Below, in pieces: positions 11,236 through 24,384 of a stretch of 64,000 bases of DNA. Each line of letters begins with the position of its first letter. Positions within the stretch are counted from its first letter, which is position 1. Both the position numbers and the translations under genes were made by a program. Location: assembly GCF_000328525.1 (NCBI RefSeq), contig NC_019964.1:2914001-2978000 (forward strand). Direction: 5' to 3'. This stretch comes from Halovivax ruber XH-70. GTDB lineage: Archaea > Halobacteriota > Halobacteria > Halobacteriales > Natrialbaceae. The notes beneath the pieces are model-generated. The model was given only the letters and a program-made list of their open reading frames with translations, was not told where the DNA came from and did not search any database.

Positions 11236-11910
11236 CTACGATTCGGCGAGCGCAGCCGCCAGTTCGCCGTCTTCGTCCTCCGTCGGGAGGTCGGCGACGA
11301 AGCGCTTGATGACCGTCTCTTCGGCCCGGTGGAGCGTCTCGCTGCAGGTCGATTTCGCGATGTCGAGGCGTTCCGCGAGTTCCGTGAGGGTACAACAGCG
11401 GGGCGTGTCGTAGTAGCCCTCCTCGACGGCGGCGACGAGAACCTCGCGCTGGCGCTCGGAGAGGAGCTGGCTGTCGTGCAGCCGTTCGCGGACGTGCTCG
11501 ACGCGGTAGGTGAAGCCGAACGCTTCGAGCTGATCGGCCAACTCCGAGAGGCGAGCACGCGAGCCCGTCACGTCGACCTCTGCCTCGCCGTCGCGGATGA
11601 CGATCGGTGGTTCGAGTGGCATCCCCGACTCCTTCGAGGAGAAGAGCAGGAGCGGGGCGGTCGTCTCGAAGTGGACGGTCAATTCGCCCTCGCTCACCTG
11701 CGCGGGCGTCAGTTCCGTGATCTGGTCGTGGGCCGCCATCGACTCGGCCACCGATTCGACGTCGGGGCCGGTGATGTTCACCAGGGCGAACCCGTTATCC
11801 TGGCCGGGAACCCCGGCGAGGACGCGAAACGTCGCCTCCGGATGGTCGCGAGAGATCTGTGCGATCCAGACACGCCTGGGCAGCGTCACCGAAAGCGTCG
11901 CATGTGCCAT
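11236..11910 (-). CDS. HTH_10 regulator divergent from DUF2249 genes
   Basis: A 224-residue regulator with an N-terminal sensor domain of the bacterio-opsin-activator type and a C-terminal HTH_10 domain (LSERQREVLVAAVEEGYYDTPR, TELAERLDIAKSTCSETLHRAEE). The N-terminal half has no cysteines; CC and one more Cys lie in the HTH itself. ATG 11910 gives the family-like MAHATLSVTLPR; the frame extends upstream without support. Two perfect CGAA-N4-TTCG palindromes lie in its promoter, one directly at the start and one 40-51 bases upstream, so it is probably regulated by a NarO-type protein or by itself. It diverges from the DUF2249/heme/oxidase genes and probably controls them. Confidence 0.87.
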   Translation of the reverse strand: MAHATLSVTLPRRVWIAQISRDHPEATFRVLAGVPGQDNGFALVNITGPDVESVAESMAAHDQITELTPAQVSEGELTVHFETTAPLLLFSSKESGMPLEPPIVIRDGEAEVDVTGSRARLSELADQLEAFGFTYRVEHVRERLHDSQLLSERQREVLVAAVEEGYYDTPRCCTLTELAERLDIAKSTCSETLHRAEETVIKRFVADLPTEDEDGELAAALAES

Positions 11911-11911
11911 A

Positions 11912-11923
11912 CGAACACGTTCG
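11912..11923. promoter_or_regulatory. CGAA-N4-TTCG palindrome (site 1)
   Basis: CGAACACGTTCG, a perfect 12-base palindrome one base upstream of the minus-strand regulator start at 11910. It matches the CGAA-N4-TTCG site I recall for the haloarchaeal anaerobic regulator NarO. Its position over the likely transcription start suggests repression or autoregulation. Confidence 0.6.
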
Positions 11924-11949
11924 GGAGGAGATGCCAAAAGCTGTTGGCC

Positions 11950-11961
11950 CGAATATATTCG
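11950..11961. promoter_or_regulatory. CGAA-N4-TTCG palindrome (site 2)
   Basis: CGAATATATTCG, a second perfect palindrome of the same form, 38 bases centre to centre from site 1 and 40-51 bases upstream of the regulator ATG. This is where an archaeal activator would sit upstream of TATA for the leftward gene; it is also 95 bases upstream of the rightward DUF2249 start. Confidence 0.6.
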
Positions 11962-12055
11962 TACAGGGGTCCGTGGCCGGCGTCGCTTGCGTCGGCAACG
12001 TGCCGAACCAGTTCGGCCGAACCCCGATAGGGACCGAGGACGGAGACTGACTCGC

Positions 12056-12289
12056 ATGACAGAACTGGACGTCCGCGACGTGCCGCCGATGGAGCGCCAC
12101 CCGAAGATTCACGACGCGTTCGAGGAACTGGCCGCCGGTGAGAGCCTCACGATCGTCAACGACCACGAACCCAAACCGCTGTTCTACGAGTTCCAGGCCG
12201 AGGTCGAGACGTTCGACGCCGACGGCTACGAGGTCGAACAGGTGGGTGAAGCGGAGTTTCGAGCGACGTTTCCGAAGAGCGAGGCCTGA
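12056..12289 (+). CDS. DUF2249 domain protein (first copy)
   Basis: A 77-residue single-domain DUF2249 protein, a small alpha/beta fold related to TusA/SirA. It has the family features: a start of LDVRDVPPMERHPKIHDAFEEL, the turn GESLTIVNDHEPKPLFYEF and the C-terminal EAEFRATFPK. DUF2249 genes repeatedly sit next to nitric oxide, nitrite and heme-copper oxidase genes and are thought to deal with NO-stressed or metal centres, but no reaction is established. ATG 12056 is clear. The neighbouring gene downstream is a second DUF2249, separated by a direct repeat. Confidence 0.87.
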   Translation: MTELDVRDVPPMERHPKIHDAFEELAAGESLTIVNDHEPKPLFYEFQAEVETFDADGYEVEQVGEAEFRATFPKSEA

Positions 12290-12293
12290 GCGA

Positions 12294-12422
12294 GCGCAGC
12301 GAGCGAAGGTCTCGGATGGCGAACGGCGACCGACGGGAGCCGTGAGCGGCGTGGAGCAGTTCCGGCGCAGCGAGCGAAGGCCTCGGATGGCGAACGGCGA
12401 CCGAAGGAAGCCGTGAGCAGCG
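12294..12422. repeat. Two direct repeats of 58 bases with 13-base spacer
   Basis: Bases 12294-12351 and 12365-12422 match at 54 of 58 positions (start GCGCAGCGAGCGAAGG, end CCGTGAGC followed by G-rich or AGCG). The element fills the gap between the two DUF2249 genes. GCGCAGCGAGCGAAGG-type strings recur between genes in other haloarchaeal genomes as I recall, so it may be a dispersed intergenic repeat that duplicated here. Confidence 0.8.
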
Positions 12423-12460
12423 ATTCGAGCGGGTAACACGGGTGCGAACAACCACACACC

Positions 12461-12472
12461 CGAACTCGTTCG
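12461..12472. promoter_or_regulatory. CGAA-N4-TTCG palindrome (site 3)
   Basis: CGAACTCGTTCG, the third perfect copy of the palindrome, upstream of the second DUF2249 and the heme synthase/oxidase genes. If translation begins at ATG 12511 the site is 39-50 bases upstream, the same distance as site 2 from its gene. Confidence 0.6.
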
Positions 12473-12510: not shown

Positions 12511-12777
12511 ATGTACTCGATCGAGGGCGTGTTCGACCGGACCGACGCACCGGCGGATCGGCCGCGTGACCACCTGGACGTGCGGTCGATGGGGCCGCCG
12601 AATCCGCTCGCGAAGACGCTCGAACGGCTTCCCGAGCTGGACGACGATGTCGTTCTCGTCCAGCGAAACGACCGCGTCCCGCAGTTTCTTCTCCCGAAAC
12701 TCGACGATCGCGGCTACGCGTACGAGTCGGTCGAGCGCGAGGACGACGTCGTGACGCTGATCTGGCGCGATGCGTAG
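12511..12777 (+). CDS. DUF2249 domain protein (second copy)
   Basis: About 88 residues. After a short N-terminal stretch it has the DUF2249 core: LDVRSMGPPNPLAKTLERLPEL, VVLVQRNDRVPQFLLPKLDDRGYAYES and a final VVTLIWRD. It is divergent in sequence from the first copy, so this is an old duplication. I prefer ATG 12511 because ATG 12478 would begin within a few bases of the palindrome at 12461-12472. Its end overlaps the start of the fused heme synthase by 8 bases, showing co-transcription and pointing to a role in making or protecting the heme-copper enzyme encoded further on. Confidence 0.8.
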   Translation: MYSIEGVFDRTDAPADRPRDHLDVRSMGPPNPLAKTLERLPELDDDVVLVQRNDRVPQFLLPKLDDRGYAYESVEREDDVVTLIWRDA

Positions 12778-14263
12778 CGCCCCACTCACCGACCGCGATC
12801 CCCAGGGCGACGGGCGCTTTCGAGTCGCCACGCTGCTCGCGGTCACGACGATCGCGGCGTACGCCCTCGTCGCCCTCGGGACGGCCGTCTCCGCCGGCGG
12901 CGGGACCACGTGTTCGACCTGGCCGAGTTGTGGAACGGATCCGACGCTCGGACCGCTCTCCGGCGAACAGTTCCTCTTCTGGGCCCACCGCGCGGCGGCG
13001 CTGGTGACCGGCCTGCTGGTCGCTGCGTCGGGGCTGGCAGTTCGACGGGCGACGCTCGGTCGGCGTATCCGCGTGGCCGTCTACGCGGCCGTCGTCGCAT
13101 TTCCGGTGCAAGTGGGCCTCGGCGCCGTCATCGTCGTCGGCGGACCGTCGCTGGCGAACGACGTCCACCTCGTGCTCGCGATGGGCATCTTCGCGACGCT
13201 CCTCGTCGCGCTCGTCTGGACGCTCGACGCGGCGGCGGACGCGAGGCGGGATCGGGCGTCCAGCGTGGACCCAGTTGAGCTAGAGCCGGCAGTCGATGCG
13301 GACATCGACCAGCCAGTGGAGGAACCGTCGGTCGATGCGAGCGTCGATCCGGACGCCGAGGTCGACACACCGAACGACGGGCGCTCCCGACTGCGCCGCC
13401 TCGCGGGTGCGTACCTGACGCTGACGAAGCCGCGGCTGATGTGGCTGCTCTGTCTCGTCGCCGTCGCCGGGATGGGACTGGCCACGCTGACCGGCGCGAC
13501 GCTTTCGGCGACGACCGTCCTCGCCACGCTCGCGGGGGGCGTCCTCGCTATCGGCGCGAGCGGGACGTTCAACCACGTCTACGAGCGCGACCGCGATCGG
13601 AAGATGAACCGGACGAACGACCGGCCGCTGGTCCACGAGCTGGTCCCGGTCGGGAACGCGCTGGCGTTCGCCATTGCGCTCGTCGTCGCCTCGATGGCCG
13701 TCCTCGTGACGTGGACGAACGTCCTCGCAGCGGCGCTGACGCTCGCGGCAATCGGCTACTACGCCGTGCTCTACACCGTGGTACTGAAGCCGAACACGGC
13801 GTGGAACACGGTCCTCGGCGGTGGCGCAGGTGCGCTCCCGGCAGTCATCGGGTGGGCCGCCGTCACCGGCGACGTCGGCTGGCCGGCCATCGGCCTCGCC
13901 GCGGTGATCTTCCTGTGGACGCCCGCGCACTTCTACAACCTCGCGATCGCATTCCGTGACGACTACGCGCGTGGAGGCTTCCCGATGTACCCCGTCGTGG
14001 AAGGGGTCGCCGCCGCTCGACGCCAGCTCACACTCTACCTCGGTGCGACGCTGCTCGCGGCGAGCGCACTCGGCTGGGTGGCCGGGCTCGGCTGGCTCTA
14101 CACGGTGACGTCGATCGCACTCGGTGGGGTCTTCCTCCGGTCGGTGCTCCGGCAGTACCGCCACCCCACCGACGAGCGCACGCTCCGCTCGTTCTACGTC
14201 TCGAACTACTACCTCGGCGCGATACTCGTCGCCATCGTCGTCGAGACGCTCGTGTTCGCCTAA
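12770..14263 (+). CDS. ctaB: Fused half-size heme A synthase and heme O synthase (CtaA-CtaB)
   Basis: A 497-residue two-domain membrane protein. Residues about 18-160 form a four-helix CtaA-like half: the cysteine/tryptophan loop CSTWPSCG, a heme histidine in FWAHRAAALVTGLL and another in NDVHLVLAMG, as in the half-size archaeal heme A synthases. After an acidic linker (about 165-205) residues 207-497 are a complete CtaB protoheme IX farnesyltransferase with NHVYERDRDRKMNRTNDRPL (the Mg-polyprenyl diphosphate site), LKPNTAWNTVLGG and WTPAHFYNLAI. The product should convert heme b to heme O and then help make heme A. It overlaps the DUF2249 gene and precedes the oxidase operon, so it serves that enzyme. 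Confidence 0.92.
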   Translation: MRSAPLTDRDPQGDGRFRVATLLAVTTIAAYALVALGTAVSAGGGTTCSTWPSCGTDPTLGPLSGEQFLFWAHRAAALVTGLLVAASGLAVRRATLGRRIRVAVYAAVVAFPVQVGLGAVIVVGGPSLANDVHLVLAMGIFATLLVALVWTLDAAADARRDRASSVDPVELEPAVDADIDQPVEEPSVDASVDPDAEVDTPNDGRSRLRRLAGAYLTLTKPRLMWLLCLVAVAGMGLATLTGATLSATTVLATLAGGVLAIGASGTFNHVYERDRDRKMNRTNDRPLVHELVPVGNALAFAIALVVASMAVLVTWTNVLAAALTLAAIGYYAVLYTVVLKPNTAWNTVLGGGAGALPAVIGWAAVTGDVGWPAIGLAAVIFLWTPAHFYNLAIAFRDDYARGGFPMYPVVEGVAAARRQLTLYLGATLLAASALGWVAGLGWLYTVTSIALGGVFLRSVLRQYRHPTDERTLRSFYVSNYYLGAILVAIVVETLVFA

Positions 14264-14464
14264 ACTCGGTTCCGGCGACGGCCACTTTCCGTCGCAACCG
14301 AGCGAGTCGCCGTTCACCGAATCGTGGCACATCGACACCAGCGACGGCCCGCGTCGATCGTGCCGGATAAACTCCCGCAATTTGGCGGCCACGGGACGCG
14401 ACGGCGGAATATGTGCGGGACAGGGGCTATGCACATACCGTGAGGATCGTCGGACGATTGCACT
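14264..14464. other. Upstream region of the oxidase operon
   Basis: About 200 bases with no gene. Only a weak AT-rich GAATATG (14408-14414) lies about 50 bases before the small-subunit start. I found no CGAA-N4-TTCG site here, so transcription may run through from the heme synthase. Confidence 0.35.
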
Positions 14465-14614
14465 ATGGCTCCCGACGACACGACCGACACCGTCCCCGTG
14501 ATGCAACGGCTCTACGACCGAATCTGGCTGCTCGCAGCCGCAGCACTCCTGTTCTTCGCGATCTCGTACGTCGGCTGGGGCTGGGCAGACGTCTTCTCGA
14601 TTCCCACGGGGTGA
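14465..14614 (+). CDS. cbaD: Small single-helix subunit of heme-copper oxidase (CbaD-like)
   Basis: A 49-residue protein with a short acidic N-terminus (MAPDDTTDTVPV) and one helix, IWLLAAAALLFFAISYVGWGW, near residues 19-41. Single-helix subunits of about this size precede subunit II in ba3-type operons of haloarchaea (cbaD in Natronomonas pharaonis, from memory). It stops 4 bases before the subunit II ATG, so it is translationally coupled. Identification rests on position, size and topology, because such peptides carry no catalytic motif. Confidence 0.72.
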   Translation: MAPDDTTDTVPVMQRLYDRIWLLAAAALLFFAISYVGWGWADVFSIPTG

Positions 14615-14618
14615 TTCG

Positions 14619-15164
14619 ATGACGTCACCACTCAAACCACCCGAAGGCGACTGGTGGAGTCAGCCGGTCAACCGGCGCGAATCGATCTGGCTGGGGCTGG
14701 GTGCCATCTGGTCGGTGATCCTCTTCGGCTGGATGAGCGTCTGGACCACCGCCGGAGAGCAAAACCCCATCGGCGAGACCTATCGGATCGAGGCCGAGGC
14801 GTTTCGCGAGAAGATGTCGGCCTACAAGGATGCGGCGACGGAGACCGACGAGGGGCTCGTCCCGCCAGGGACGGACGTCTACATCCAGGCGATGCGGTTC
14901 TACTGGGACGGCGCGCCGGTCGTCCTCGAGGCCGGCACCGAGTACGACATTCACCTGAACTCGATGGACGTCCAGCACGGCTTCTCGTTGCGACCGGAAG
15001 ACGCGCTCAGCAAGCAGATCAACCTGCAGGTGCTGCCGGGCTACGAGTGGGTCGTCCCGATGACCTTCGACGAGCCGGGCACCTACCACATCATCTGTAA
15101 CGAGTTCTGCGGAGAGGGCCACCGGACGATGCACGGGACGATCGTCGTGACGGAGGGGAGCTGA
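14619..15164 (+). CDS. cbaB: Heme-copper oxidase subunit II with CuA centre
   Basis: Electron-entry subunit, 181 residues: one N-terminal membrane helix (about 25-45) and an extracytoplasmic cupredoxin domain. The CuA ligands are complete: His120 in MDVQHGFSL, then Cys160, Glu162, Cys164, His168 and Met171 in CNEFCGEGHRTM. It therefore receives electrons from a blue-copper protein (halocyanin) or cytochrome c, and passes them to subunit I. It is followed after one base by the catalytic subunit. CuA is found in oxygen reductases and also in some NO reductases, so its presence does not decide the reaction. Confidence 0.95.
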   Translation: MTSPLKPPEGDWWSQPVNRRESIWLGLGAIWSVILFGWMSVWTTAGEQNPIGETYRIEAEAFREKMSAYKDAATETDEGLVPPGTDVYIQAMRFYWDGAPVVLEAGTEYDIHLNSMDVQHGFSLRPEDALSKQINLQVLPGYEWVVPMTFDEPGTYHIICNEFCGEGHRTMHGTIVVTEGS

Positions 15165-15165
15165 G

Positions 15166-16911
15166 ATGGCACACAGATACGACGTCCTCGGCCTGTTCGA
15201 CAACGAGTACGACGACGAGGGCTTCCGGACGTGTTCGGTGACCGGGCTCCGGATCCACCACACCGTCGAGAACCACGTGAAGCTGTTCGGGCTGACGGCG
15301 GTCGTCGCCCTGCTCGTCGGCGGCATCTTCGCGTTCACCGTCGCGACGACCCGGTGGGAGGCGATCGGCCTCCTCGGGCCCGACGCCTTCTACACGCACC
15401 TGAGTATGCACGCCTGGAACCTGCTCATCTTCTGGATGGTGTTCATGGAGGTGGCGATCCTCTACGTCGGCGGGCCGATGGTACTGGGTCGGAGACTGCC
15501 GTGGACGAAGGTGGCGACGGCGGGCTGGCTCACGATGGTCGCCGGTGCGGTCGCCGTCAACTACACCATCTGGACGACGTCGACGCCCAACGAGGCCCCG
15601 CTACTGACCGCGTACGTCCCGATGCCGGTCTCGCCGTGGTTCTACGCCGCGGCCTGTCTCTTCATCGTTGGCACCGTGATCGCGGCACTGCCGTTCTTCG
15701 TCGCGATGTGGCGCGAGAAGCGCGAGTATCCCGGAAAGACGCTCCCGCTCGTCGCGTTCGCCGCGTTCGTCACCTCGATCATCGCCGTCGAGGCGCTCGT
15801 CGGCGGACTCGTCGCGTTCGCGCCGGCGATGCTCTGGCGCTTAGAGATCATCGAGTGGGTCGACGCCGCCTGGTACCGGCAGATGTACTGGATCGTCGGC
15901 CACGGCACCCAGCAGATCAACCTCGTGGCGATGATCACGGTCTGGTACTTCCTCACCCACGTCGTCGCCGGCGCGGAGGTCGTCAGCGAGAAGGTCTCGC
16001 GGACGGCCTTTATCCTCTACCTCTTCTTCATCAACCTCGGGGCGGCCCACCACCTGCTGTCGGACCCCGCAGTCTCGACCGGGTGGCGCATCTGGAACAC
16101 CTCCTACGCCTTTTACGGCGCGACGTTCGCCAGCCTGATCCACGCCTTCGCCATTCCGGCGGGCATCGAGGCCGGTCGCCGCAAGCGCGGCAAGGGCGGC
16201 GGCCTCTTCGGCTGGCTCACCTCCGCTCCCTGGGGCAACCCCGTCTTCTCGTCGACGATCTTCTCGATCATCCTCTTCGGCTTCCTCGGCGGGATCACCG
16301 GCGTCATGATGGGGCAGTTGCAGCTCAACATGACCTGGCACAACACGTTCGCGACGGTGGGGCACTTCCACGCGACGGTCGTCCTCGGCACAACGGTCGC
16401 GTTCATGGGCCTGCTCTTCTTCCTGATCCGGACGATGTTCAGACGCCAGTGGCTCTCGACCCGCCTCGCGGCGGTCCAGCCGTATCTCTACGCGGGCGCG
16501 ATGGGCGTCGCCGTCCTCATGATGATGTACGTCGGCATCCTCTACGGCGTCCCGCGCCGGACCGTCGAAGTCGTGAGCAACATCCAGGGCACCGAGTTCG
16601 ACCTCGCGGCGGCGAGTCCGCTGTTCGCCATCTTCGGGATCTTCGCGCTGCTCGCCATCGCCGCCGGGGTCCTGTTCATCCTGCTAGCCGTCGGCTCGCT
16701 GCTGTTCGGCAAGCGGATCGACGACGGGACCAACGTCTCGGACCTCGTTGCTGATGGTGGGTTAGCGATGGCTGAAGACCCCGACGATCCCGTCCACGCC
16801 TACGAGATGCGCGGGACGTTCGTCCTCTGTCTCGTCTTCCTGGCCGCGTTCGTGATCACGTACCTGCTAAACTGGTATCTGCTGACCCAGCTCTGGTCGA
16901 TCGGCGCCTGA
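15166..16911 (+). CDS. cbaA: Heme-copper oxidase subunit I (ba3-like; possible NO reductase)
   Basis: Catalytic subunit, 581 residues with about 13-14 helices. Metal ligands are present: His78/His82 in HLSMH (low-spin heme), His246 (CuB), His295-His296 in AAHHLL (CuB), and His400/His402 in GHFHATV (active-site and low-spin hemes). The position four after His246, which in oxygen reductases holds the tyrosine cross-linked to that histidine, is Gln250 (GHGTQQ), and the preceding Glu/Pro positions are also changed. From memory, glutamine here is a feature of the eNOR family of NO reductases. No tyrosine substitutes obviously. The operon, its heme A pathway gene and the nearby nirK make NO reduction a serious option; the family label remains ba3-like oxidase. 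Confidence 0.93.
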   Translation: MAHRYDVLGLFDNEYDDEGFRTCSVTGLRIHHTVENHVKLFGLTAVVALLVGGIFAFTVATTRWEAIGLLGPDAFYTHLSMHAWNLLIFWMVFMEVAILYVGGPMVLGRRLPWTKVATAGWLTMVAGAVAVNYTIWTTSTPNEAPLLTAYVPMPVSPWFYAAACLFIVGTVIAALPFFVAMWREKREYPGKTLPLVAFAAFVTSIIAVEALVGGLVAFAPAMLWRLEIIEWVDAAWYRQMYWIVGHGTQQINLVAMITVWYFLTHVVAGAEVVSEKVSRTAFILYLFFINLGAAHHLLSDPAVSTGWRIWNTSYAFYGATFASLIHAFAIPAGIEAGRRKRGKGGGLFGWLTSAPWGNPVFSSTIFSIILFGFLGGITGVMMGQLQLNMTWHNTFATVGHFHATVVLGTTVAFMGLLFFLIRTMFRRQWLSTRLAAVQPYLYAGAMGVAVLMMMYVGILYGVPRRTVEVVSNIQGTEFDLAAASPLFAIFGIFALLAIAAGVLFILLAVGSLLFGKRIDDGTNVSDLVADGGLAMAEDPDDPVHAYEMRGTFVLCLVFLAAFVITYLLNWYLLTQLWSIGA

Positions 16912-16945: not shown

Positions 16946-17668
16946 ATGACTCCAGCCACCGACGCCGACGCGACTGTATCGCCGGTCACGACCGTAAAGC
17001 GGAGTCTCGGTCGGGCCTGGCGGGACCTGCTGAGTATCTACTACGCGATCACGCCGATCTGGCGCCTCTTAAAGAGCGTCGGCCTGCTCTTCTTCGGCTT
17101 TTTCTGCTGGTCGGCGAGTAGCCTCGTCCTCTCGTACGGCATCGACTGGGGCGTCCTCCACGTCGTCCGGGCGTACGGGTTCGTCCTCATCCTCTGGGGG
17201 CCGCTGACCCACGCCGTCATCGTCCCGTCGGTGATCAGGCTGCGCCGAACCGCCGACGGCGGCGTCCGCCGGGTGATCGCGCGCCACGGCTCGAAGCTCA
17301 ACCTCTCGATCTTCCTGACGATCGTCCTGCTCCTGACGGCGGCACCGATCTCGCCGATGGTGCTCGACTTCCAGAGCGCGCTGTCGGCCGACTCGGGCCC
17401 CGACATCGATCCCGACCTGACCTGCGAGGGCGTCGACGAGGAGATCAGCTGTGAACTCTCCGATCCCACGGGGATCGAGCGCGTCGTGGTGACCAGCGGT
17501 GACGCCGAGCTCGCGCGCGTCGAGGACCCGCCCTACGAGTTCACGATCCGCGAGGACGAACTCGAGGAGGTCGTCGGCCAGAAGGAGTTCGTCGTCGAGC
17601 TGCAGGACGAAGACGGGGAGACGCTGCGGCGGTATCGGAAGTACGCGTCGTCGATCCCGACGTCCTGA
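16946..17668 (+). CDS. Membrane protein downstream of oxidase operon
   Basis: A 240-residue protein starting 35 bases after the oxidase subunit I gene. It has about four helices in residues 40-155 and then an extracytoplasmic acidic domain with a cysteine pair (LTCEGVDEEISCELSD) that could form a disulfide. The C-terminal domain looks like a small beta domain (IERVVVTSGDAELARVEDPPYEF). I do not recognise the family. Its position argues for an accessory or assembly factor of the oxidase; it is larger than the fourth small subunit reported for ba3 oxidases, so I do not name it so. Confidence 0.7.
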   Translation: MTPATDADATVSPVTTVKRSLGRAWRDLLSIYYAITPIWRLLKSVGLLFFGFFCWSASSLVLSYGIDWGVLHVVRAYGFVLILWGPLTHAVIVPSVIRLRRTADGGVRRVIARHGSKLNLSIFLTIVLLLTAAPISPMVLDFQSALSADSGPDIDPDLTCEGVDEEISCELSDPTGIERVVVTSGDAELARVEDPPYEFTIREDELEEVVGQKEFVVELQDEDGETLRRYRKYASSIPTS

Positions 17669-17905: not shown

Positions 17906-20560
17906 CTACGACCCGTCCGCAAGTACTGGCCGCGAGGAGTTCAAGACGACGATCGCACTGCTCCCCGCCATCGCGAGCGCGGCGAAGAGCGGATTGATGA
18001 GACCCGCAGCGGCGAGCGGGATCGCGACGGCGTTGTACAGCAGCGCCCAGCGAACGTTCTCCCGGATTCGCCGCCGGGTTCCCTCGGCGAGCGCGAAGAC
18101 GTCCGGGACGGTCGCGAGTTCGCCGTCGGCGAGGATCGCGTCGGCGGCGTCGGTCGCACGGGCGGTCCCGCTGCCGAGTGCGATGCCGACGTCCGCCGCT
18201 GCGAGCGCAGGGGCGTCGTTCGTCCCGTCGCCGACCATCGCCGTCACACCCTCCGCGGAGAGGCGGCGAACCGTCGCGACCTTCCCCTCCGGCGGGACGC
18301 CAGCGAAGACGCGGTCGACCGCTTGCTGCTCGCGGAGTTCAGTCGTCGCCGACTCGTCGTCACCCGTGAGGACGACGACCTCGCGGTCGGCGACGGACTC
18401 GAGGACGGCTCGCCACGAGCGCCGGGGCCGATCGCCGACGACCGCCACCGCTCGTGCCCGACCGGCGTAGCCGATCACCACCGGCAGTCGGCCGCGTTCC
18501 CGGGCGTCTTCGATCGCGTCTCCGAGGTCGGCCGGGATCGGGCCGACCAGCCGCTCGATAAGTTCCGGCGTTCCGACGACGACGCGGTCCCCGTCGGTGG
18601 GGCGCTCGTCGACCCCGTCGGTCCCTGTCTCGTTGGCGTCGGCTGGTTCGTGAACGACGGCGCTGACGCCCTCACCGGGACGGCGTTCGAAATCCCGGGC
18701 ATCCAGCGCGGTAGTCTCCGTGGCGTGACCGCCGTTCTCGGCGTCGTGGCCGCTCTCTTCGGACAGGACTGTCGACCCAGCCGCCGTAACGGGCTCGCCG
18801 TCCGAAACGGCCTCGCCGTCACGCTCCGTCCCGCCGTCGGGCGCGACGGCGTTTGCGGACCCCGCCGGCTCGTCGAAGTCTGCACCCGCGGCCGCACGAG
18901 CGACGATCGCGTCGGCGACCGGGTGGGTCGAGTAGCGTTCGACGGCCGCGGCGCGGTCGATCGCCGCCTCCTCGCCGACAACCGTACGGACGGTCATCTC
19001 GCCCGTCGTCACGGTCCCGGTCTTGTCGAAGACGACCGTCTCGACGGCCGGTGCCGATTCGAACAGCGTCGCGTTCGCCACGACGATCCCCCGTTCCAGG
19101 GCATCTCGCAGCCCGGAAGCGACGGCCAGCGGCGTCGCCAGCCCCATCGCGCACGGACAGGAGACGACGAGGACCGTCAACCCGGTCAGGACGGCAGTGT
19201 CCGCCGAAACGCCACTCGCGACCCGCCAGCCGGTGACGGCGACGGCGGTGGCCAGCACGAGCGGGACGAAGACGGCGGCGAGGCGATCGGCGAACCGCTG
19301 GATTCCGGGCGTCTCGCTCTGAATCTCCCACATGAGCGAGGCGATCCGATCGAGCGTGCTCTCCGCGTCGGATCCGACCTCGCAGACGAGCGCGCTGTCG
19401 GTCACGATCGCCCCGCCGACGACCGCGTCGCCTGGTCGTTTCGTGGTCGGCATCGATTCGCCGGTCACGACCGACTCGTCGACGGCGGCCGTCCCCTCAC
19501 GAACCGTCCCGTCGACCGGCACCCGTTCGCCGGGGCGGACGACGACCGCCTCACCGGGTTCGAGGCGATCGACGGAGACGGTCTCGGTCTCGCCGTCGGC
19601 GGTCCGCCGGGTCGCCGCTCGCACGCCGGCGCTCGTCACGTCCGCGAGCAGCCCCGTCGCCCGGCGCTTGATCCGTCCCTCGTAGTACCCCCCCAGCGAG
19701 ACGACCATGATCACGGCGACGGTCACGTCGTAGTAGAGGTGCGTCCGCCCGAAGACGAGCGCGATCGTGCTGTAGACGTAGGCCGACCCCGCAGCGATGG
19801 CGATCAGCAGGTCCATGTTCGGCCGGCCGACCCGCAGGCTGACGTAGGCACCCCTGAGCACCGGATAGCCGGTGTAGCACAGCACGCCCCCGGAGAACAC
19901 CCCGAGGAGCGCCAACGGGACGGAACTCCCGGCGGCCGATCCAGCGCCAGTCGTGAGCACACCCGTCTCGATCCCGACGTAACTCGGGTAGAGGTAGAAG
20001 ACGTACCAGGGCATGACGAGCATCGAGAGAAAGCCACCGACGAGCAATCGCTGGACCAGCGCCTCGTCGGCACGTGCGTCGCGGGCCGTCCCGTCGCGCA
20101 GTCGCGTCTCGTAGCCGTAGCCCGAGAGGACCGCCGGGAGTTCGTCGTGATCGAGCCGATCAGGATCGTAGACCACGCGCGCGGTATCCGTCGCGTAGCT
20201 CGCCTCGACGGTGTGGACGGCCGGTTCGCGCTCGCCTAGCAGCGAGACGAACCCCTCGCAGGTCGCACAGTGCATCCCGTCGACGGCGAGGAAGGCCGTT
20301 TCGAATCCGGTCGGGACGGCGTCCGTGCGAGCCGCCGGAGAGGCCGTCTCGTCGGCGGCATCCTCCCGAGCCGTATCGCCGACGGAATTCTCCCGGGCCG
20401 CCTCGACGCGAACACGAACGTCGCCACGATCGAGGTCGTCGGTGTCGACCAGCGTCCGACTCACCTCGAGACAGCCGCGACAGCAGAAGGTCCCGTCGAC
20501 GTCCGGGTCGCTCACCGGAGGATCGGGCGTCGGGAGTTCACAGAGCGAACAGTCGCTCAT
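17906..20560 (-). CDS. Copper-transporting P1B-type ATPase with CcoI/FixI-like N-terminus
   Basis: Heavy-metal P-type ATPase, 884 residues. Order: an N-terminal cysteine domain (CSLC at 4-7, CCRGC at 26-30) like that of CcoI/FixI ATPases that supply copper for oxidase assembly; a heavy-metal-associated domain with GMHCATC (95-101); transmembrane region with the CPC metal site (Cys468-Pro-Cys470); phosphorylation Asp512 in DKTGT; the HP motif in YSTHPVADAI; and GDGTNDAPAL. Between the HP motif and the hinge is an acidic insert of roughly 90 residues, longer than usual. The CPC motif specifies Cu+. It is convergent with the oxidase operon and close to nirK, fitting copper delivery to CuA, CuB and NirK. 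Confidence 0.93.
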   Translation of the reverse strand: MSDCSLCELPTPDPPVSDPDVDGTFCCRGCLEVSRTLVDTDDLDRGDVRVRVEAARENSVGDTAREDAADETASPAARTDAVPTGFETAFLAVDGMHCATCEGFVSLLGEREPAVHTVEASYATDTARVVYDPDRLDHDELPAVLSGYGYETRLRDGTARDARADEALVQRLLVGGFLSMLVMPWYVFYLYPSYVGIETGVLTTGAGSAAGSSVPLALLGVFSGGVLCYTGYPVLRGAYVSLRVGRPNMDLLIAIAAGSAYVYSTIALVFGRTHLYYDVTVAVIMVVSLGGYYEGRIKRRATGLLADVTSAGVRAATRRTADGETETVSVDRLEPGEAVVVRPGERVPVDGTVREGTAAVDESVVTGESMPTTKRPGDAVVGGAIVTDSALVCEVGSDAESTLDRIASLMWEIQSETPGIQRFADRLAAVFVPLVLATAVAVTGWRVASGVSADTAVLTGLTVLVVSCPCAMGLATPLAVASGLRDALERGIVVANATLFESAPAVETVVFDKTGTVTTGEMTVRTVVGEEAAIDRAAAVERYSTHPVADAIVARAAAGADFDEPAGSANAVAPDGGTERDGEAVSDGEPVTAAGSTVLSEESGHDAENGGHATETTALDARDFERRPGEGVSAVVHEPADANETGTDGVDERPTDGDRVVVGTPELIERLVGPIPADLGDAIEDARERGRLPVVIGYAGRARAVAVVGDRPRRSWRAVLESVADREVVVLTGDDESATTELREQQAVDRVFAGVPPEGKVATVRRLSAEGVTAMVGDGTNDAPALAAADVGIALGSGTARATDAADAILADGELATVPDVFALAEGTRRRIRENVRWALLYNAVAIPLAAAGLINPLFAALAMAGSSAIVVLNSSRPVLADGS

Positions 20561-21085: not shown

Positions 21086-21702
21086 AGGTGGTTCGAGGGA
21101 GTGTCGGCCAGTGGCCCCGGTCGGACCGACCCCGTCGCACGGAGTCTCCGGCCGTCGTCCGGATGAAGGGGATGGGACCGACACAGAACTACTCCCGAAC
21201 GTGTTCCGATCGATCGGTACCGTCTTCGACCGACCACGATAGCTGGTCCGTTCGGTCACGCCACCCGAACACCCGCATTGTCGGTGCCTGTGCTGCTCGA
21301 ACAGTCGCATTCTCGGTGACTGCGCTGTCGCTGGCTGCCCTACTGCTCTGTCGCTGATTGCTCTTGTTGATTCCCGCGTGTCACGTGCGACCTACCAGAG
21401 AACGACCAGGCGAGAACGAGAGCGCGGCCAGCCGAGAACGGTCGCGCCCCAGGCGGACTGAGCGTGTGGAATCGACCGGACCAGTCGGCGTGAGCGTTGG
21501 GTCGAATTGTCCCGAAACCCCGCTACGCCAGAGATCGAGTCCGTGACGACCCACTGGCGGAACACCCGAGCCCTCGGCGGGTTATACTGTGTGTCTTTTT
21601 ATAGGTTTAAGAGGTCAAGCCGAACAGCTCCAGAGCGTTCTCGTTGTCAAGGAATCATCTTCAGGGTTGAACATATGTAGTCCCCTACTACCGCATGTAC
21701 CA
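21086..21702. other. 617-base divergent intergenic region upstream of nirK
   Basis: No gene is supported here. It contains a near match to the CGAA-N4-TTCG site (CGAACGTGTTCC, 21196-21207), an imperfect 32-base direct repeat (CGCATTGTCGGTG at 21274, CGCATTCTCGGTG at 21306), and the nirK promoter elements near 21580-21611. The DUF3054 promoter must also lie here. Confidence 0.5.
21580..21611 (+). promoter_or_regulatory. Probable nirK promoter
   Basis: Two AT-rich cores, TTATACT (about 21581-21587) and TTTTTATAGGTTTAAG (about 21596-21611), stand out in GC-rich surroundings. The second would start a transcript about 65-80 bases before the nirK ATG, so nirK probably has a leader, unlike most neighbours. 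Confidence 0.5.
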
Positions 21703-22791
21703 ATGACTTCCCTCTCAATCGATCGACGACGACTCATGGCTGCGATGGGTGCGACCAGTGCGGTTGCGTTAGCGGGCTGCCTCAGCAGCAGTGGAAACGA
21801 GCAGGAACCGACGAACGATGCGACTGCCAAGACGAGCGACGAGGGGCTCGATCCAGCGAAACCGACGGATGTCGACCGGATCGCGGCCGATCCGACCGAC
21901 CTGCCCGACCCGGTCGACTGGTCGTCCCCGCGGACCCACGAGATCGAAGTGACGACGACCGAACGCATCGCCGAGATCGAACCCGGCGTCACGTTCAAAT
22001 ACATGACGTTCGACGACCAGGTTCCAGGGCCGATGATCCGGGTACGGCGCGGCGACACCGTCCGGCTCACCCTGACGAACGCCGCCGAGTCGGCGGTCGT
22101 CCACAACATCGACCTCCACGCCGTCTACGGACCTGGCGGCGGCGCGGACGACACGATGGTCGACCCGGGCCAGTCGGCGACGATCGAGTTCAAAGCGATG
22201 TACCCCGGCGTCCACGTCTACCACTGTGCGGTCCCGGACATGGACATGCACATCAGCGCGGGCATGTTCGGTGCGATCCTGGTCGAGCCCGAGGACGGTC
22301 TCCCCGAGGTCGACCGCGAGCTGTACTTCGGGCAGAACGAGATCTACACGAACGGTGCCGCTGGCGAGGATGGCCACCACGAGTTCGATTACGACGGGAT
22401 GGCAAGCGAAGAACCCACCTACGTCACGCTGAACGGCGAGGCGTACGCCTTCACCGAGAATGGATACGGGCCAGTCACGGTCCAGAAGGGAGAGCGGGTC
22501 CGCATCTTCCACGCCAACGGCGGGCCGAACCTCACCAGCTCCTGGCACGCCATCGGCAACGTCTGGGAGACGCTCTACCGCGACGGCGACATGGTCTCCG
22601 ACCCCGCCCGATACGTCGAGACGACCCCGGTCGTCCCCGGCTCGGTCGGTGCGGCGGAGATCGACACGCCGGTTCCCGGCCCGATCAAGATCGTCGACCA
22701 CGCACTCAGTCGAGTCGTCCGCAAGGGCATGCTCGGCGTGATCCAGGTCGAGGGCGAGCCGGAACCGGAGATCTTCAACCCGGAGCCCTGA
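21703..22791 (+). CDS. nirK: Copper-containing nitrite reductase
   Basis: Reduces nitrite to nitric oxide outside the cytoplasmic membrane. The 362-residue protein starts with a twin-arginine lipobox signal (DRRRLMAAMG ... ALAGC, Cys26), so it is a Tat-exported lipoprotein. Two cupredoxin domains are complete with the NirK ligands: His134 (type 1), catalytic Asp137 and His139 (type 2) in HNIDLH; His174 (type 2) and Cys175 (type 1) in YHCAVPDMDMH; His183 and Met188 (type 1); catalytic His282 in SSWHAIG; and His333 (type 2) in VDHALS. It heads a same-strand series with a blue-copper protein, Sco and a TlpA-like protein, which look like its electron donor and copper/thiol chaperones. Confidence 0.96.
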   Translation: MTSLSIDRRRLMAAMGATSAVALAGCLSSSGNEQEPTNDATAKTSDEGLDPAKPTDVDRIAADPTDLPDPVDWSSPRTHEIEVTTTERIAEIEPGVTFKYMTFDDQVPGPMIRVRRGDTVRLTLTNAAESAVVHNIDLHAVYGPGGGADDTMVDPGQSATIEFKAMYPGVHVYHCAVPDMDMHISAGMFGAILVEPEDGLPEVDRELYFGQNEIYTNGAAGEDGHHEFDYDGMASEEPTYVTLNGEAYAFTENGYGPVTVQKGERVRIFHANGGPNLTSSWHAIGNVWETLYRDGDMVSDPARYVETTPVVPGSVGAAEIDTPVPGPIKIVDHALSRVVRKGMLGVIQVEGEPEPEIFNPEP

Positions 22792-22901: not shown

Positions 22902-23477
22902 ATGACACCCCACTGCCTCACTCGACGCGACGCACTCGGCACTAGCGTCGGCCTTGCCGGTATCGTTCTCGCCGGTTGTCTCGACCGAGGCGACGAGACG
23001 GCCGAACCGGAAAACGCGGGCGAACTCGGTACCCCGACGGACCGGATCACCGTCACGACGACGTCCCGACCGTTCCCCGAGTTCGATCCCCAGATCGTCC
23101 ACGTGAGCGAGGGGGCCACCGTCGAGTGGGTCGTCGAAACGGGCCGTCACGACGTGGCGGCCTACCACCGCGACACCCACCCACCCCACCGGACGCCCGA
23201 CGGGATCGAACCCTGGGGCAGCGCGCGGCTCAGCCAGCCCGGTGAGACGTTCGAACACACGTTCGAGCGTGAAGGGGTCTACGACTACGTGGACACCCAG
23301 CAAGTCTGTACCTCACACGAGGTCGCGGGCAACATCGGGCGCGTCGTCGTCGGCTGGCCCGATCCCGACGCCGAGCCGGCGATGGACGACCCGCCGGCGG
23401 AGATGCCCCAGCGGGCTATCAACGCGCTCAGTATGTTCAACGAACGAACCCGTCCGGTGCTGGACGCCGGGCCGTGA
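22902..23477 (+). CDS. Halocyanin-like blue-copper lipoprotein lacking the axial methionine
   Basis: A 191-residue exported protein: RR signal and lipobox (LTRRDALG ... VLAGC, Cys26), then one cupredoxin domain. Three type 1 copper ligands are visible (His83 in GRHDV; Cys136 and His139 in VCTSHEVAGNIG), but the residue at the axial position, normally methionine in GM-x-G, is Asn144. A weaker or different axial ligand would raise the reduction potential or change the site. It also has an H-rich turn (YHRDTHPPHR, 88-97). Position 110 bases after nirK suggests an electron donor to NirK or a copper carrier. Downstream Sco follows after 58 bases. Confidence 0.85.
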   Translation: MTPHCLTRRDALGTSVGLAGIVLAGCLDRGDETAEPENAGELGTPTDRITVTTTSRPFPEFDPQIVHVSEGATVEWVVETGRHDVAAYHRDTHPPHRTPDGIEPWGSARLSQPGETFEHTFEREGVYDYVDTQQVCTSHEVAGNIGRVVVGWPDPDAEPAMDDPPAEMPQRAINALSMFNERTRPVLDAGP

Positions 23478-23535
23478 CGATCGATCGGCCAAGCAGTCCA
23501 GACCGACCCGAAACACCCCGACTCGAAGCAAGACG

Positions 23536-24384
23536 ATGAACGTGAACGAAACGACCGTCGACAGACGAACGATGCTGCGGGTGGCCGGAGCGACTGCGAT
23601 CGGCCTGCCGCTCGCGGGCTGCATCGAGCGAATCGGTGACGAGACGGGAGCGACTCGTGAGGACCTCGTATTGGCACCCCCAGCGAGTCACGACCGCGCC
23701 CGTGAAACGGACGTCCCGCACCCGATCTACGGCGACGACCTCCCGGAAGCGACCGTCCAGGCCCCACTACACGACCGCTCGGTGACGACCACCGAGTTCG
23801 TCGGCGATCGGGCGACGATGCTGACGTTCGTCTTCACGAGCTGTACGACCGTCTGTCCAGGCCTCACCTCGACGCTCCGCCGGATCCAGGCCGATTCGAT
23901 CGAGCGGGGCTACGCCGACGAGATCGCGTTCCAGACGGTCACGTTCGATCCCGAGTACGACACCACGGACGTCCTCAGGGAGTACGGGGAGAAACAGGGC
24001 GTCGACTTCGACGTCGGGAACTGGTACTTCCTCAGGCCAGAGACGCCCGCGCGTGCCACGTCGGTCGTCGAAGACACGTTCGGCGTCGCGTTCGAGCGCG
24101 CGGACGAGAGCGACCCGACCGAATCGGAGAACGAGACGACCGATGACGATCACACCGAGAGTGACGGCGAAACGGGCGATACCGACCACGACGGGATGAA
24201 CGAGAGCGACGGTGACACCGACGAGACCCACGACGGACACGGACGCAGCCACCGTCACTTCGTCCACACCTCGCTGGTGTTGCTGGTGAACAGAGACGGG
24301 CTGGTCGAGCGAGCCTACGCTGGCGGGCCGCCAGCCCCGCGAACCGTGCTGGACGACGCCCGCACGGTCGTCGAGGAGGGATGA
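23536..24384 (+). CDS. SCO1/SenC-type copper chaperone
   Basis: Sco protein, 282 residues, which delivers copper or electrons to CuA-type and related sites. It has a twin-arginine lipobox signal (VDRRTMLRVAG ... LAGC near residue 29), the thioredoxin-fold copper motif FTSCTTVCPGL (Cys103, Cys107) and the third ligand His244 in FVHTSLV. Between the motifs is an insert of about 45 residues made almost only of Asp, Glu, Ser, Thr, Gly and His (near 195-238), ending in a short His-rich segment that may bind metal. The 3' end overlaps the TlpA-like gene by four bases. Targets are NirK and/or the CuA subunit at 14.6 kb. Confidence 0.93.
   Translation: MNVNETTVDRRTMLRVAGATAIGLPLAGCIERIGDETGATREDLVLAPPASHDRARETDVPHPIYGDDLPEATVQAPLHDRSVTTTEFVGDRATMLTFVFTSCTTVCPGLTSTLRRIQADSIERGYADEIAFQTVTFDPEYDTTDVLREYGEKQGVDFDVGNWYFLRPETPARATSVVEDTFGVAFERADESDPTESENETTDDDHTESDGETGDTDHDGMNESDGDTDETHDGHGRSHRHFVHTSLVLLVNRDGLVERAYAGGPPAPRTVLDDARTVVEEG

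Follow-up and report, generated by a model that had tools for sequence, protein, structure and literature searches.

The window, a stretch of 64,000 nucleotides from the single-contig, 3.22-Mb genome of Halovivax ruber XH-70, holds a gene whose 581-aa product is a heme-copper oxidase subunit I (PF00115, E 3e-51). A 49-aa IIa-like gene, a CuA subunit gene, this catalytic gene and orfX stand in succession, within a neighborhood of heme synthesis, copper transport, nitrite reduction and regulatory genes (Table 1). An earlier note on this DNA had claimed that the motif GHGTQQ has Gln at the site of the Tyr that is cross-linked in oxygen reductases. We found both ends of the open reading frame and the motif as described, residues 245-250 being GHGTQQ (His246-Gly-Thr-Gln249-Gln250), and the CtaA-CtaB fusion and the copper nitrite reductase NirK, at 21.7 kb, likewise lie where the note had placed them.

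Table 1. Genes and promoter elements around the candidate NO reductase operon, in window coordinates.
Feature	Position	Strand	Evidence or remark
HTH_10 regulator (bacterio-opsin-activator / DmsR / NarO type)	11236..11910	-	PF04967 E 4e-19; start inferred from sequence
Perfect element CGAATATATTCG	11950..11961	+	about 51 nt before the probable start of the HTH_10 gene (- strand)
Perfect element CGAACCAGTTCG	12004..12015	+	52 nt upstream of DUF2249 gene
DUF2249 protein, 77 aa	12056..12289	+	PF10006 E 6e-25
Perfect element CGAACTCGTTCG	12461..12472	+	50 nt upstream of DUF2249 gene preceding ctaAB
Second DUF2249 protein, 88 aa	12511..12777	+	PF10006 E 5e-13; overlaps ctaAB
CtaA-CtaB fusion (heme A / heme O synthase)	12770..14263	+	family matches
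Degenerate element copy (6/8), GGAATATGTGCG	14406..14417	+	59 nt upstream of IIa ATG
Small single-helix protein, 49 aa, subunit IIa-like	14465..14614	+	directly upstream of CuA gene
eNOR subunit II (candidate), membrane-anchored CuA cupredoxin	14619..15164	+	adjacent to eNOR in 60/60 haloarchaeal, 83/84 bacterial loci
eNOR subunit I (candidate), heme-copper NO reductase catalytic subunit	15166..16911	+	His246...Gln250, CuB His295/His296, heme His400/His402/His82
orfX, conserved membrane protein, candidate accessory subunit	16946..17668	+	directly after eNOR
Copper-translocating P-type ATPase	17906..20560	-	TIGR01511; near eNOR in 39/60 haloarchaeal loci
Copper nitrite reductase NirK, likely lipoprotein	21589..22791	+	TIGR02376 378 bits, cut-off 296; Met probably at 21703
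Halocyanin-type cupredoxin, candidate electron donor	22902..23477	+	TIGR03102 E 1e-9, PF00127
SCO1/SenC family protein, likely CuA maturation	23524..24384	+	PF02630 E 2e-13

A Gln at the Tyr site defines the E-family nitric oxide reductases (eNOR), whose presence in Halobacteria has already been published (PMC8756737). To place the window's protein among them, we aligned 90 haloarchaeal and 84 bacterial rows with 17 oxidases that bear the Tyr. Some haloarchaeal genes are represented by two rows each (loci L006-L035 and L125-L184), leaving about 61 independent genes; the bacterial eNOR rows were gathered by similarity and all share the Gln, and plasmid rows were left out of one alignment (A3). 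Gln250 falls on Tyr237 of the ba3 oxidase and His246 on His233. Chance or sequencing error was ruled out as the source of the Gln, because Q249 and Q250 are invariant across the 174 homolog rows. In 174/174 eNOR rows, five residues in all never vary (E95, Q249, Q250, N252 and H326), and Tyr oxidases carry other residues there (A/L/I/T, V, Y, W and T, respectively, in the 16 B-type sequences).

The histidines that hold the hemes and CuB are intact in the alignment (H82, H246, H295, H296, H400 and H402). Of the ligands that the earlier note listed, His246, His295, His296, His400 and His402 stood, being present here and invariant in the homologs except for Lys at 402 in 5/84 bacterial rows. His78 did not: the position is H in 74/90 haloarchaeal rows and mostly V/A/I/F in bacteria, and the low-spin heme His is His82, which is invariant and aligns with the conserved His of 17/17 Tyr oxidases. 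The bacterial rows with Lys at position 402, the second heme His and a low-spin ligand, read HFK in place of HFH, as do two Thermus plasmid eNOR rows (L038 and L041).

Neither known cross-link site offers a Tyr. On helix VI, residue 250 is Gln in all 174 eNOR rows; on helix VII, where we take the C-family (cbb3) Tyr to lie six residues before the CuB His pair, residue 289 is Ile here and Ile/Leu across all 174 rows. An oxygen reductase with its Tyr elsewhere was therefore rejected, as were a B-family (ba3) enzyme, which has the cross-linked Tyr at His+4 of helix VI where this protein has Gln250, and a C-family enzyme, for which Ile289 stands at the helix VII site. Identity with the haloarchaeal qNOR (NorZ), likewise an NO reductase of haloarchaeal denitrifiers, was rejected since its NorB cytochrome-c-like N-terminal domain (PF22085) is absent from subunit I; qNOR further differs in being quinol-linked and in having Glu at the site. 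Bacillus bNOR (CuANOR) is, similarly to eNOR, a CuA-type NO reductase related to B-family oxidases, but bNOR and sNOR have Asn, and gNOR has Asp, where this protein has Gln250 (site letters from Table A4, PMC8756737), and these three identities were rejected as well.

Among solved structures, the ba3 oxidase of Thermus thermophilus comes closest in sequence (E about 2e-32), and the search of PDB sequences gave no structure of an eNOR. A predicted model of subunit I (mean pLDDT 86.8) superposed on ba3 1ehk with Z 35.8 and an rmsd of 2.2 A over 475 residues at 25% identity. The window's enzyme shares with ba3 (1ehk/3s8f) the fold, a CuA subunit and an IIa-like subunit, and differs from it in that Tyr237, Val236, Trp239 and Ala85 are replaced by Gln250, Gln249, Asn252 and Glu95.

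Phylogenetic analysis with IQ-TREE (LG+C20), from which the signature columns had been removed and in which the characterized Rhodothermus marinus eNOR sequence was not included, separated the eNORs from the Tyr oxidases with support 98/98. A firm place inside proven O2 reductases, which would have spoken against the earlier note, did not occur; the protein groups with bacterial eNORs. Within the bacterial eNORs, those of haloarchaea make up a single clade (100/100), a nesting that suggests one entry of eNOR into Halobacteria; the clade stands next to a Thermus plasmid eNOR on a long branch (0.93), a placement to be held loosely. Judged by its sequence, the protein is thus an eNOR, a member of a known heme-copper NO reductase family, and the passage of PMC11388526 that cites Murali 2024 reports eNOR as biochemically characterized.

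Subunit II has its CuA ligands in the pattern DVQHGF...CNEFCGEGHRTM, kept in the 60 haloarchaeal copies, and its alignment to subunit II of Thermus ba3 gave E about 4e-18, bearing out the claim that the CuA subunit is complete. The IIa-like gene is present in 61/61 haloarchaeal loci, window included, in the position of ba3 subunit IIa (PMC3128077). The orfX product, in which about three stretches are hydrophobic and the tail is weakly Ig-like (Big_7 E 0.018), matched no family over any cut-off; the gene is found in 59/60 haloarchaeal loci, the single exception being cut by a contig end. CtaA-CtaB lies near eNOR in 40/60 haloarchaeal loci and a CtaB-like gene in 59/84 bacterial loci. The CtaA half of the window's fusion scores below Pfam's own cut-off. 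The fusion aligns to a 600-aa heme o synthase gene that adjoins a Thermomicrobium plasmid eNOR. Other bacterial neighbors are a multicopper oxidase, an Rrf2 regulator and a DUF542 protein beside the Thermus plasmid eNORs and a hemerythrin gene near the Defluviimonas eNOR.

We then considered the association with nitrite reduction. NirK lies within about 10 kb of eNOR in 24/60 haloarchaeal loci, against a chance expectation of <1/60, roughly estimated for genomes of 3-4 Mb that hold one or two copies of NirK. Its arrangement varies by genus, upstream or downstream of eNOR and on either strand, so the eNOR-NirK pairing arose or was rearranged several times. Among 322 Halobacteria genomes, each at least 90% complete, eNOR occurs in 59 (61-100% identity, the next matches reaching at most 32%), NirK over the cut-off in 175 and qNOR in 178. 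NirK is present in 56/59 eNOR haloarchaea versus 119/263 others (OR 22.6, p 7e-14). Stratified by the 14 genera holding both states, the link persists (OR 34, exact p 9e-11), the test being approximate in that the member tables omit some genomes without any match; as a control, ba3 oxidases against NirK gave an unstratified OR of 2.4. Only 1/101 genomes having neither NirK nor qNOR carries eNOR, and of the three eNOR genomes without NirK over the cut-off (G240, G256 and G286), G240 and G286 have qNOR. Since qNOR also occurs in 40/59 eNOR genomes, eNOR is not the sole NO reductase in most hosts; conversely, it is present in 18/43 NirK-bearing genomes without qNOR. Two genomes (G207 and G310) hold two eNOR copies each, at different places.

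In bacteria, 43/46 eNOR genomes have cytochrome d1 (NirS-type) or NirK, as counts without a matched baseline. A cytochrome d1 gene was detected in 39/46 at a threshold of E<=1e-60, the family covering NirN/NirF besides NirS, and NirK occurs in 4 of the remaining 7. NirS-like genes, a few of them weak matches, lie within the fetched flanks of 18/84 bacterial eNOR loci.

The promoter regions pointed in the same direction. CGAA-N4-TTCG is the haloarchaeal denitrification promoter element and, in H. mediterranei, forms part of the promoters of respiratory nirK, nor and nosZ (PMC10062603). Scanning positions -85 to -35 of the IIa ATG, we found the element at a score of at least 7/8 in 42/61 haloarchaeal eNOR operons (15 perfect; control 6.4%), the operons coming from related genomes that are not independent. 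The matches cluster at -50 and -60 (range about -50 to -62), and this fixed spacing upstream of eNOR operons is telling. The copy before the window's own operon, common to its close relatives, is weak, given that a best score of 6 is reached in 27% of random stretches, and no clear copy was found before the window's nirK. The window as a whole holds 7 elements versus a shuffled mean of 2.0. Four perfect copies fall within positions 11236-12472, alongside the HTH_10 regulator and the two DUF2249 genes. Three of the four precede a start codon by 50-52 nt, and this segment resembles a small regulon for denitrification; members of the response include DUF2249 genes and bacterioopsin-activator-like regulators (PMC11218638). 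An HTH_10 gene is located near eNOR in 26/60 haloarchaeal loci.

With the eNOR family (Hemp & Gennis 2008 and Murali et al. 2024, cited in PMC8756737 and PMC11388526) the window's enzyme shares the Gln at the Tyr site, a CuA subunit II gene immediately before it, a neighboring CtaB or CtaA-CtaB gene, a link to nitrite reductase and presence in Halobacteria. The haloarchaeal clade differs from the wider family in having orfX and the haloarchaeal denitrification element and in its pairing with NirK, whereas most bacterial hosts here have NirS-type genes.

The host genome contains four heme-copper subunit I genes: one aa3 (GHPEVY), two ba3 (GHAVVY and GHMVVY) and the eNOR, the first three keeping Tyr. 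The earlier note had proposed that haloarchaeal loci annotated as ba3 oxidase belong to denitrification, which would apply to the GH[GS]xQQ type (59/322 genomes) but not to the usual, Tyr-bearing ba3 genes of the same genome. It had also raised the question of whether qNor is missing, and no qNOR match, PF22085 included, was obtained in this genome, with Haloferax volcanii as the positive control. Nor was there a match to a NarG-type molybdopterin oxidoreductase in the genome (Haloferax volcanii again serving as positive control for the molybdopterin family) or any NosZ over the cut-off, the NosZ model giving only a sub-cut-off match in Haloferax volcanii. The eNOR is the only NO reductase found in the host genome. 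Because qNOR, NarG and NosZ were not detected, the nitrogen-oxide pathway seen runs from nitrite to NO to N2O, and because the sole NO reductase found sits beside an NO-making enzyme, the organism probably turns nitrite into nitrous oxide, a greenhouse gas. Collectively, the signature, tree, operon structure, co-occurrence and promoter element support the assignment made in the earlier note, and the operon very probably encodes an E-family nitric oxide reductase of this haloarchaeon.

On this basis, a reaction path can be proposed. The neighboring NirK would reduce nitrite to NO, as expected of its family. Electrons, probably from halocyanin, would enter at CuA of subunit II and pass through the low-spin heme (His82/His402) to the heme-CuB centre (His400; His246, His295 and His296), where 2 NO would yield N2O; CuA entry, low-spin heme transfer and reduction of 2 NO are drawn from the family (PMC8756737, PMC11388526 and established knowledge). 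With the cross-linked Tyr replaced by Gln250, flanked by Gln249 and Asn252, the Tyr-using chemistry of O-O splitting would be unavailable. The CtaA-CtaB fusion is the putative source of an A/O-type heme. For protons, the K-path of ba3 comprises Glu15(II), Thr315, Tyr248, Thr312, Tyr244, Ser309, the heme hydroxyl and Tyr237 (PMC3141039). Tyr261 (Tyr248 of ba3), Ser323 (Ser309) and the subunit II Glu are kept in eNOR, Ile257 occupies the Tyr244 position and His326 that of Thr312. Aligned in this way, a modified K-type path may remain, consisting of the subunit II Glu, Tyr261, His326 for Thr312, Ser323 and the heme hydroxyl, in which His326 could bridge the gap. We tentatively propose that, in haloarchaea lacking qNOR, eNOR may be the sole respiratory NO reductase, under a NarO/DmsR-type denitrification regulon and conserving energy via such a path, with His326 replacing the lost Tyr/Thr relay.

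It is also conceivable, if rather unlikely, that NO is reduced mainly for detoxification, or by a bifunctional NO/O2 reductase, and not as a respiratory, energy-conserving step. The short pathway of a host with no detectable NarG or NosZ, the qNOR in many eNOR hosts, and the DUF542 and Rrf2 genes in Thermus and hemerythrin gene in Defluviimonas would fit such a role; however, CuA-linked electron entry and the conserved, altered K-type path suggest an electrogenic enzyme, and the element sits in respiratory promoters in H. mediterranei (PMC10062603). We regard it as improbable that the enzyme reduces oxygen for microaerobic life with no cross-linked Tyr, or with another donor, and shares its hosts with denitrification genes by chance. 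The eNOR-NirK link is about tenfold stronger than the moderate ba3-NirK association that such an explanation could invoke, and it holds within genera; the ba3-type fold, the CuA subunit and the heme A synthase fusion within the locus would agree with oxygen reduction, but the denitrification-regulon element in relatives, the lack of Tyr at both known cross-link sites in all rows and the three Tyr oxidases already in the genome speak against it. Another substrate, e.g. in NO dismutation or another N-oxide, is very improbable: NO dismutases are likewise altered members of the heme-copper superfamily, but the known ones are altered qNORs, whereas the window's protein belongs to the B-type side of the superfamily and its family is strongly linked to nitrite reductases.

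If eNOR is indeed the sole respiratory NO reductase of qNOR-less hosts, haloarchaea scored as NO-releasing and NirK-only would often be N2O producers. For the 18 NirK-bearing genomes noted above, the gas predicted to be emitted would change from NO to N2O. Because eNOR genes are labeled as oxidases, denitrification surveys in haloarchaea overlook them: plasmid eNOR homologs bear the annotation of a cbb3- or ba3-type cytochrome oxidase, and the KEGG label for the related bNOR and sNOR is coxA (PMC11388526). One survey counted all haloarchaeal Nor as qNor (PMC8400030). To the occurrence of eNOR in Halobacteria published in PMC8756737, the present analysis adds a quantitative NirK link, a link to the promoter element and regulon, and the conservation of the IIa and orfX genes; it also shows that eNOR is present in many NirK haloarchaea that have no qNOR. 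With NirK and eNOR but no detectable qNOR, NosZ or NarG, a natural strain of this kind offers an archaeon in which a single type of NO reductase stands alone.

Two further observations concern other genes. About 3.4 kb from a ba3 gene, locus L005 (genome C1, about 3017899-3021072) encodes a COX1-like membrane protein with a weak PF00115 match, possibly NnrS-like. A-family oxidases usually have PTGIKVF at one K-channel site; the haloarchaeal aa3 subunit I of locus L001 has LPFDLMVFALIY there, and its K-channel lysine seems to be Met in an alignment made by eye.
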